Assembly: GCA_018262855.1 (NCBI GenBank)
Contig: JADFDO010000009.1
Coordinates: 1-64,000 of the forward strand
Reading direction: 5' to 3'
From: Methanolinea sp.
GTDB lineage: Archaea > Halobacteriota > Methanomicrobia > Methanomicrobiales > Methanospirillaceae
Length of the DNA: 64,000 bases
In this document: piece by piece, positions 11,544 through 14,572 of the stretch
Position numbering within the stretch: position 1 is the first letter of the stretch
Layout: each line of letters starts with the position of its first letter
The notes under the pieces: model-generated
Told to the model about the DNA's origin: nothing
The model's database searches: none
The model's input: the letters and a program-made list of their open reading frames with translations, nothing else
Made by a program: the position numbers and the translations under genes

Positions 11544-11852
11544 TTACCTTTGCTCTTCCACAGCAATCTTCTGCTGGGTGGTGAGGACATCAACAAGTAG
11601 ATCTTTCATGATTTTCTTCATGAAATCCCGTCCCTCATCCGACGCCAGGAACTCATGGAGGTTTTCCTTGAACTGTCCCACATCGTCATGATTGTCAACG
11701 AAATATATTAATGCTTGGGTTATGCAATCGGAGACCGTGGAAAATTTTTTCTCCTCGTATACGAGCCTGTTCACTTTTTCGTAGATATTCGGGGGCATTT
11801 TATAGGAAACGGCAACACGTTCCCCCCGCTTGTTATTACCCCTGTCCACCAT
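11544..11852 (-). CDS. Ribbon-helix-helix (CopG/NikR-like) transcriptional regulator
   Basis: The 102-residue protein begins with a basic arm (DRGNNKRGERVAVSYKMPP) and an RHH-like fold (strand VAVSYKMP, helices IYEKVNRLVYEEKKFS and VSDCITQALIYFVDN). A longer helical C-terminal extension may drive oligomerisation or bind a ligand. It is divergent from the membrane protein gene at 12006. The intergenic space carries two copies of a palindromic site next to the other gene's TATA box. This arrangement strongly suggests that the regulator controls the divergent gene and probably itself; direct evidence of binding is lacking. Confidence 0.8.
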   Translation of the reverse strand: MVDRGNNKRGERVAVSYKMPPNIYEKVNRLVYEEKKFSTVSDCITQALIYFVDNHDDVGQFKENLHEFLASDEGRDFMKKIMKDLLVDVLTTQQKIAVEEQR

Positions 11853-11960: not shown

Positions 11961-11967
11961 TTAAATA
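11959..11967 (+). promoter_or_regulatory. TATA box of the RHH-linked membrane protein gene
   Basis: CTTTAAATA predicts a transcript start near 11990, just before the ribosome-binding site GAGGAGG (11991-11997). This makes the ATG at 12006, not the one at 11967, the likely start codon. Confidence 0.5.
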
Positions 11968-12005
11968 TGAACGCCTTCAAAAGAGATGCTGAGGAGGCAC
12001 ATCTG

Positions 12006-12473
12006 ATGAATGAAATCCTGTTCTTTGGAGTCATATTCGGAGGCATTTTCTCACTTTTTTCCAGTATCATCCTGGTCCACATGGGCAGGCTGATTGACCG
12101 GTTCCCCACAGAACACGAGGAAGAGAGGGAGAGGTGCATATGGAGCCCGAGAGAGTTCACGAAGTATGCCGTGATGCTCTACTGGCCGGTCTATATCGTA
12201 GGAGCCTGGATGCTCATCCCCGGCACAAGAATCCTCACGGTCAGCGGTATTGCCACTCTCTTTGGACTGATCCTGTTCATGGTGACTGCCATCATATTCT
12301 CGATCGCAACCTACAACCTGATGCGGGCAAAGAACAAGGGAGCTCCATCCCTTATGGGAGGCCTGTTGAAGCAGGGACGGTTTTTCCGCGCTTTCCACCT
12401 TCCCGTCCAGGTCAGGAAGGAATATTCACCCAGGCAGACCAAGGTATCTCATTCCGCGACTGTCGAGGAATAG
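12006..12473 (+). CDS. Multi-pass membrane protein controlled by the divergent RHH regulator
   Basis: About 155 residues from the ATG at 12006, which has the strong ribosome-binding site GAGGAGG nine bases ahead. Three hydrophobic helices are visible: EILFFGVIFGGIFSLFSSII, YAVMLYWPVYIVGAWMLIP and SGIATLFGLILFMVTAIIF. The protein ends in a basic tail with RFFRAFHLPVQVRKEY. An in-frame ATG at 11967 overlaps the TATA box and is unlikely. No family is recognised. Paired with a dedicated DNA-binding regulator and palindromic sites, it may be a stress- or metal-responsive membrane protein, but the signal is unknown. Confidence 0.68.
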   Translation: MNEILFFGVIFGGIFSLFSSIILVHMGRLIDRFPTEHEEERERCIWSPREFTKYAVMLYWPVYIVGAWMLIPGTRILTVSGIATLFGLILFMVTAIIFSIATYNLMRAKNKGAPSLMGGLLKQGRFFRAFHLPVQVRKEYSPRQTKVSHSATVEE

Positions 12474-12554
12474 GATCATTTTTTTCATTATCACCTTTTT
12501 TCTATCTCCAAGTGGTGTGCAATACCGAGCCCTATGGATTACCGCTTTTTCCAG

Positions 12555-13200
12555 AACCAGTCCCATGGTGATAAGGCGATCCAATGCGGCGGGGCGAAGC
12601 CCCAAGAACGTCATTACGTAACGAGTTTGGTATTTCGTCGATGGGGAGGGGGAGAATCCCCCCTCCCCAGACCTCACCCCCACAACGCGATAACCTGTGA
12701 CCAGGATTTCACAGAAATAACCCAATCCAATCGGCTTCTCAGTACTGGTCCTATCGCATTTTGGGATGCCACATGCGACAGCGCGAAGCTCCAAGAGTGT
12801 TATTATGGAATGAGTTCGGTATCTTGTCGATGGCGAGATGGAGATTCACCCTCATAATCCCTCCCCCACAACGCGATAGGTTGTGGCAGGATTGCATAGA
12901 ACTCTCTCAATCTAGTCGGCTTTCAGCACTGGTCCTATCGCATTTTGGGATGCCACAGCGGCGGGGGCGACAGCCCCCAAGAGCGTCATCGTGAATTGAG
13001 TGCGGTATTTTATCGACGGGGAGGGGGAGAATCCCCCTCCCCTGATCCCTCCCCCAACAACGCGATAGCCTGTGACCAGGGTTTCACAGAAATCCCCAAA
13101 TCTAGTCAGATCTCAGCACCAGCTCTATAGCACTTAAGAAATGCCACAGCGACAGAACGAAGTCTCAAGAGGGTCATCATGGGTTGAGTGCGGTTTGATT
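12555..13200. repeat. Tandem ~185-bp structured repeat, three full copies plus one partial
   Basis: Unit boundaries are visible at about 12555, 12744, 12928 and 13118, so the period is about 184-190 bp. The best-conserved join is GGTCCTATCGCATTTTGGGA (12748 on and 12931 on), degraded in the fourth copy. Each unit contains a small hairpin (GGGGCGAAGCCCC; GGGGGCGACAGCCCCC), a conserved CAAGAGCGTCAT-like block, and a G/C-run hairpin (12643-12668; 13018-13042). It then contains CAACGCGATA and a CTGTGA...TCACAG inverted repeat. Copy 2 has degenerate G/C runs. Small open frames across it are repeated reading artefacts. The rest of the 12474-13348 gap shows nothing recognisable. The flanking genes are convergent. 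Confidence 0.8.
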
Positions 13201-13348: not shown

Positions 13349-14572
13349 TTACCCCCCGAACAGTTCCCTTGACCGTTCGAGTGCTTCCACAGCAGGCAGC
13401 TTCTTCCCGGTCAGGAACTCGATACAGGCCCCGCCGCCGGTTGAGATATGGGTAAAGTCCCTGTCGATTCCCATCTTCTCCACGACCGCAGCAGTATGGC
13501 CCCCGCCAATGATGGAAAATTCGACCTTCGATGCAGCTTTCAACAATTCGTAGGTCCCCGTGGCAAAATCAGGCTCTTCAAAGACTCCTGCCGGGCCGTT
13601 GAACACGACCGTCCCGCATTTCCTGATGGCTCCCGAAAGTGTGGTGATCGAGTCAATGCCTGCATCCATGATCGGGGCATCCTTTGGGATTGCAGTAACG
13701 GGGTATTCCGCCCGCTTTCCGTTCTCCTTGACTGCGACGAATTCGGGGATAATGATCCTGTCGCTGAACGAAGAGAGGAGCTTCTTTGCCCGGGAGATCT
13801 CGCCCTCATACTTCAGTTGCTGGATCAGCTGCGAGGCGGGTTTTCCTATATCGAATCCTGCGGCTGCAAGGAATATGTTTGCGACGACACCCGTCACGAT
13901 AATCATATCAGCAGTATTCCCGTTCAGCATGTGATCTGCAACGGAGATCGAGTCGTCAACCTTGGTTCCGCCAAGCACCATGCAAACGGGCTTTGGTGAG
14001 TTCTGAAAGACTCTCGTGAGCGTCGTAACCTCTCTCTCCATCAGGAGCCCGGCAACCGATCTCATGGCCATCGGCAATCCCACCATCGTGGGCTGGGAGC
14101 GGTGAGCGGTGCCGAAGGCATCGTTCACAAAATAATCTCCCATCTGTGCGAGTTTCCTGACGAGGAAAAGTTTCTGCGCATCATCAGACTTTACTGTGAG
14201 ATTCTCTTCGGCGTTGAACCTGACATTTTCAAGGACAAGCACCTCGCCGTTCTTCATGGCACGGACCGCGTCCCGGGCACACTGTCCAAAGATATCGTCA
14301 ACATAGCGCACTTTTCTCCCGAGCAGTGCCTCAAGCCGCTCGGCATGTGCTTCCAGGGTAGTGAAGTCCTTCTTCCCGGGCCTGCTCTGGTGGGTGACAA
14401 TCACCACACGGCTCTGGGACAGGGCCTGGATGGTGGGAAGGTGCTCCCGGAAACGCTTGTCATCAAGGATGTGTTTCGTCGTTGGATCGATGGGGGAATT
14501 GAGGTCGAGGCGGAGGAGGATGGTCCTGCCCTCAGGTTTTATCTCCTTCAGGGTCCCGATGGGCACACTCAT
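13349..14572 (-). CDS. pgk: Phosphoglycerate kinase
   Basis: The 407-residue enzyme transfers phosphate between 1,3-bisphosphoglycerate and ADP. Family motifs include LLRLDLNSPID near residue 20, VIVTHQSRPG, the substrate-binding VLVLENVRFNAEEN, the DYFVNDAFGTAHRSQPT block, and a C-terminal SIIGGGHTAAVVEK nucleotide-binding loop. In methanogens it works mainly in gluconeogenesis. Its ATG lies nine bases after the atpD stop, with a strong site AAGGAGAGG immediately upstream. It therefore looks like the last gene of the ATP synthase operon. Confidence 0.95.
   Translation of the reverse strand: MSVPIGTLKEIKPEGRTILLRLDLNSPIDPTTKHILDDKRFREHLPTIQALSQSRVVIVTHQSRPGKKDFTTLEAHAERLEALLGRKVRYVDDIFGQCARDAVRAMKNGEVLVLENVRFNAEENLTVKSDDAQKLFLVRKLAQMGDYFVNDAFGTAHRSQPTMVGLPMAMRSVAGLLMEREVTTLTRVFQNSPKPVCMVLGGTKVDDSISVADHMLNGNTADMIIVTGVVANIFLAAAGFDIGKPASQLIQQLKYEGEISRAKKLLSSFSDRIIIPEFVAVKENGKRAEYPVTAIPKDAPIMDAGIDSITTLSGAIRKCGTVVFNGPAGVFEEPDFATGTYELLKAASKVEFSIIGGGHTAAVVEKMGIDRDFTHISTGGGACIEFLTGKKLPAVEALERSRELFGG

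Follow-up and report, generated by a model that had tools for sequence, protein, structure and literature searches.

What is a tandem array of hairpin-bearing units doing between two convergent genes of a Methanolinea genome? The array lies in a stretch of 64 kb (hereafter the window) from a contig of this 2.29-Mb genome, and a previous reading of the sequence alone had described tandem copies, the last of them partial, with a period of 184-190 bp, proposing a non-coding RNA array, a nucleoid or replication-related site, or a decayed mobile element. Tandem Repeats Finder detects one array in the window (12600-13194, period 186, 3.2 copies, score 539), and profile searches, which give a full extent of 12552 to ~13250 and unit starts (Table 1) spaced by 188, 184 and 190 bp, bear out both the period and the partial last copy. 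The array fills the gap between genes ending at 12473 (+) and 13349 (-), and its units are non-coding, as had been supposed. T-rich stretches at both gene ends fall outside the array, which is therefore probably outside both transcripts. The membrane-protein-like ORF is present in 35 of 81 Methanoregulaceae genomes and adjoins pgk where the junction was read; another short ORF, at 11544-11852 (-) and ribbon-helix-helix-like by eye, has the same place in the congener G011 (L047 1232-1540).

Table 1. Features of the array and of its two neighbouring genes; positions are those of the window.
Feature	Position	Strand	Description	Basis
Unit 1	12552-12704	+	5' module 12552-12636, 3' module 12641-12703	nhmmer/CM matches
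Unit 1 hairpins	12591-12603, 12643-12668	+	both intact; outer 5' arm degenerate	
Unit 2	12740-12890	+	5' module 12740-12823, 3' module 12830-12886	profile matches, fold
Unit 3	12924-13079	+	best preserved	CM 134.8 bits, E 6.9e-32 genome-wide
Unit 4	13114-~13250	+	partial, decayed; recognisable 5' module 13114-13199	profile matches, fold
CTATCGC arm, unit 3	12935-12941	+	partner is 13062-13068	sequence
GCGATAG arm, unit 3	13062-13068	+		sequence
5'-core hairpin, unit 3	12963-12978	+	GGGGGC-GACA-GCCCCC, then AAGAGCGTC	sequence, fold
3' module, unit 3	13018-13055	-	GGGGG-A-GGG-ATCA-GGGG-A-GGGGG-ATTCT-CCCCCTCCCC	rPQS layout (PMC8044849)
CTGTGA/TCACAG inverted repeat, unit 3 inter-unit stretch	13070-13089	+	also 12695-12714, unit 1	sequence
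Small membrane-protein-like ORF	11967-12473	+	convergent with pgk; same neighbour in other species of the genus	
Phosphoglycerate-kinase-like gene (pgk)	13349-14572	-	named from reading its sequence, without family search	

Copies 1 and 3 keep both G/C hairpins intact, the one in the 5' core reading GGGGC/GCCCC and GGGGGC/GCCCCC and the other GGGGAGGGGG/CCCCC(C)TCCCC; this complementarity and the decay of copy 2 had been noticed correctly, and copy 4 has decayed too. Unit 2 retains its outer arms, with both GC hairpins decayed. The CTGTGA/TCACAG inverted repeat, which had been attributed to every copy, is confined to copies 1 and 3; the rest of the family does not conserve it.

The unit measures about 150-180 nt and is an alternation of two modules: (i) a 5' core, whose short form is TATCGC..GGGG.TGCCACAGCGGC plus the hairpin GGGGC-GAA-GCCCC and AAGAGCGTC, and whose full form is CAGCACTGGCCC-TATCGC-..-GGGGATGCCACAGCGGC-GGGGC-GAA-GCCCC-AAGARCGTC..GAGTGCGG; (ii) a 3' module made of a GC hairpin and a C-run ending in GCGATAG, in full GGAGGGGGA-GAA-TCCCCCTCC-GGACC-CCCCC-GATA-YGCGATAG-CCTGTGGGCAGGGTT. 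Conserved across the family are TATCGC...GCGATA, the two GC hairpins, the C-run and AAGARCGTC. TATCGC is complementary to GCGATAG, and the complementarity runs on into GGGG/CCCC, so each arm within an array could pair with an upstream or a downstream partner. Where a single element has a detectable partner, the order is most often 3'-5', the arms enclosing a variable loop of ~45 nt, with good pairing in L041, L049, L070, L076 and L087; the 5'-3' order is also present (L068, L071, L075), the modules occur separately as well, and for many single cores of other genera a significant partner was found on neither side. In some copies the modules are separated by one more small hairpin. GUGAUGA...CUGA might have been read as a box C/D or kink-turn motif, an idea dropped because the variants do not have both boxes together. 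In one unit at the pgk junction of G011 (L094 2205-2439; L047 2396-2630) an unrelated GC-palindromic stretch is nested inside the 3' hairpin.

The array is not private to this locus. BLASTN of the array against its own genome, which had been proposed as a check, finds three more loci, two of them arrays and one shorter; a family profile built from 26 units (A1, R1) gives 14 matches there at E<=1, the weakest not convincing. At E<=0.001, 60 of 199 Methanomicrobiales genomes are positive and belong to families f1, f2, f3, f4 and f5; the two matches in f2 are single and weak (2.8e-4, 4.8e-4), thus four families are well supported. Most sequenced species of the genus (Methanolinea/Methanoregulaceae) carry the element, which is more divergent across the families of the order. 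Of 247 genomes drawn from the phylum, 21 were positive, all of them in Methanomicrobiales, and no match lay outside that order. Copy number is strongly variable: 14-31 in several congeners, 39 in G024, at least 104 in G193 (Methanoregula sp. UBA154), and zero both in G016 and in G006, a 99% complete genome of the same genus. A replication or nucleoid site would accordingly be non-essential, since some near-complete relatives have zero copies.

None of the 43 clusters mapped in the genus overlaps a called gene, and the 38 gaps with both neighbours callable comprise 20 convergent, 12 co-directional and 6 divergent ones; the convergent share (20/38, against 6 of the 22 window gaps >100 nt; binomial p ~8e-4) is indicative only, the gene calls being crude and some clusters orthologous. 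The orientation of the units relative to the genes is unconstrained. The junction between the membrane-protein gene and pgk carries arrays in G000, G011, G008 and G004, a decayed one in G002, a single 3'-5' element in G012 and none in G007 and G006; ndk and other junctions likewise carry arrays at the same place in several species. The nearest relative is a unit of the same array for 35 of 74 units, which indicates local amplification and homogenisation. Only direct tandem arrays are found in the genus of the window; in G024 the core forms inverted clusters (+ - + - +), BIME-like, and in G193 it forms part of mosaics that include a different GC palindrome. This second palindrome (GCCGCCGCCCCCGACGGGGCGCCCCCGCGGC-like) stands beside the core at L071, L072, L085 and the G193/G024 loci (L144-L173), giving BIME-like mosaics in Methanoregula-type genomes. 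At L046/L049 the elements and the compared flanking translations are identical in G008 and G011, other loci shared by the two being clearly different; a contig may have been cross-binned between the metagenome assemblies.

One part of the unit has already been described. The rPQS of Methanomicrobiaceae, published in 2021, is a G/C motif of ~42 nt that, according to PMC8044849, is intergenic, lies tail-to-tail in about half of the cases without strand preference, and shows hairpin/triplex/G4 equilibria in vitro. It is the reverse complement of the 3' module, with two G-runs, 3-5 nt, a G4-A-G5 hairpin and a complementary C-tract, and our element resembles it also in being intergenic, about half between convergent genes, and confined to methanogens of Methanomicrobiales. 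The spacing of its four G-runs (1 nt, 3-5 nt, single A) is found on the minus strand of unit 3 (13055-13018); in unit 1 the second G-run is only GG. We located the published motifs in genus g21, which we take to be Methanoculleus from the loop sequences GCA, ACC, ACA and CTGAC, matching the Methanoculleus set of PMC8044849. There, GATA/GATG, typically as GGCGATA, comes within 30 nt after 47 of 52 rPQS, and TATCGCC precedes many of them; this shared GCGATA arm after the C-run makes the published motif and the 3' module the same thing. The rPQS is therefore a portion of a larger palindromic unit. The 5' core, the TATCGC/GCGATA arms, the unit of ~150-180 nt, the tandem arrays and the Methanoregulaceae copies do not appear in the accessible text of PMC8044849, and no other paper on the unit came up in our search of the literature on REP-like repeats, MITEs and tandem repeats in these archaea. 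The larger unit and its arrays, of which we found no report, extend the 42-nt motif and are not a new class of system.

Among the closest known systems are also the bacterial REP/BIME repeats (PMC2817692, PMC3733652), which are short, palindromic, many-copy and extragenic, lie mostly downstream of genes, form mosaic clusters of alternating orientation in some genomes and are patchy between relatives. The palindromic, extragenic, many-copy character holds here too (0/43 gene overlaps, at least 104 copies in G193 and 14, at a loose threshold, in the genome of the window), as do the placement mostly downstream of genes and the patchiness between relatives. This element, however, is archaeal, has two or three hairpins and fixed-period direct tandem arrays, and its units are several times longer than the 20-40 bp of bacterial REPs. 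Bacterial REPs are mobilised by the Y1/RAYT transposase (PMC2817692); unlike the GTAG REPs that go with RAYTs, this element lacks the GTAG tag, and Y1_Tnp (PF01797) had no match in the genome of the window or in the ten other congeneric genomes that were searched, which leaves REP-style mobilisation hypothetical for it. REPs tagged with CGTC also lack a dedicated transposase; they are defined by a CGTC adjoining an 8-9-bp stem that starts with AT, a 4-5-nt loop and a CCA tail (PMC3733652). Our element falls outside that definition, its CGTC lying ~5 nt after the GGGGC/GCCCC stem; after the CGTC there is at most a variable stem of 4-5 bp, not conserved in other genera. Prokaryotic satellites, as described in the available part of PMC6749651, are similar in being archaeal non-coding tandem repeats with long units, and Methanoculleus marisnigri is listed there as satellite-rich; their families are usually species-specific, whereas this element is order-wide, with arrays at orthologous positions. 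A CRISPR was rejected, since the units differ from each other by 20-30% and, within the window array, the sequences between units are homologous too.

The array is best explained as, and in our judgement likely to be, a member, amplified locally into a small satellite, of a Methanomicrobiales-specific family of non-coding palindromic intergenic repeats that is REP/BIME-like and has no Y1 transposase. A non-autonomous palindromic element would have spread to intergenic sites by some enzyme other than Y1/RAYT; an inserted unit with its flanking sequence would have been amplified in tandem by slippage or unequal crossing-over via the long repeats, and the copies that last would be mainly those between transcription units, where an insertion does no harm. 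Instead of a series of RNA genes, the array probably represents a feature at the DNA level, hairpin-, triplex- or G4-capable. Of the three interpretations in the sequence-only reading, it is the mobile element or DNA site that fits best, and the non-coding RNA array is disfavoured.

Orthologous arrays at the same junctions across species could, against the REP/BIME-like explanation, reflect selection for function. The strongest alternative, although a rather unlikely one, is in fact a selected DNA element between convergent genes, acting as a topological insulator, a transcription roadblock, or a G4/triplex switch that limits head-on transcription. The enrichment in convergent gaps, the persistence of arrays at shared junctions across several species, the T-runs near both gene ends that flank the window array as well as its G011 orthologue, and the in vitro equilibria reported in PMC8044849 all agree with it; however, 18 of the 38 classified clusters are not convergent, the same junction is empty in G007 and G006, G006 and G016 are without any copy, and tolerance alone also predicts the convergent preference. 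Less likely again is that an order-specific chromosomal element with alternative hairpin/triplex/G4 folds has been kept since the Methanomicrobiales ancestor to serve as insulator or roadblock where transcription units converge, its dose being set by the number of tandem copies.

A structured non-coding RNA array, in which each unit would be transcribed into a closed multi-branch fold and the tandem copies would raise dosage, is in our view improbable. Compared with shuffled sequences, the predicted fold of unit 3 is much more stable and that of unit 1 somewhat more so (z-scores for copies 1-4, as single-strand DNA: -2.2, -1.6, -3.7 and +1.7), many other copies have low predicted energies, computed without a shuffle control, and the blocks AAGARCGTC and GAGTGCGG are conserved and unpaired. 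Moreover, outer stems are compensated between distant genera, for example CTATCCTGAC/GTCAGGATAG in G185, and a hand-picked cross-genus swap of the arms favours their own partners (81 vs 51, 0/20000). Against this, the covariation score on the genus alignment, a check that had been called for, was no better than that of shuffled columns (103/500), and an anchor-defined arm swap gave a negative outcome for genus g21 (own 67, permuted 73.6); covariation of the stems is thus unproven, and we base no claim of it on the hand-picked swap. RNA stems should leave more G-U than A-C mismatches, and this excess is absent, which argues against RNA: with mismatches scored symmetrically, and copies of one array not being independent, the stems hold 26 A-C vs 24 G-T (14 vs 12 in the best-scoring copies), and 29 tRNAs of the same genome, taken as control, have 0 A-C vs 14 G-T. 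A TATA-like sequence stands within 100 nt upstream of 2 of 31 arrays, vs 8 of 32 genes and 4% of random pieces, in what is a weak test; many copies are decayed and close relatives have zero copies. Rfam gave no family above the gathering score and nothing meaningful at relaxed thresholds. The mismatch balance, the covariation within shuffles and the few TATA-like sequences together favour a DNA-level repeat.

A classical MITE, that is a non-autonomous derivative of a DDE transposon with TATCGC/GCGATA inverted repeats as its ends, is very improbable: terminal inverted repeats around ~130 nt, at least 104 dispersed copies in one genome and variable presence would suit it, but no parent element was found, nor, among genomes as divergent as those available, a target duplication, both module orders (3-5, 5-3) and separate modules occur, and MITEs seldom form direct tandem arrays. 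A neutral tandem duplication of otherwise unique sequence, with which the decay of units 2 and 4 would agree, is excluded by homologous units at three more loci of the same genome and across the order.

The REP/BIME-like repeat family remains the preferred explanation, and the analysis places a published G-quadruplex motif within a much larger palindromic unit, present in at least four methanogen families and forming tandem arrays in this genus. Structural studies of the rPQS motif gain the correct full-length object, and, with an archaeal case of REP-like repeats that lack the usual transposase, what spreads them becomes testable.
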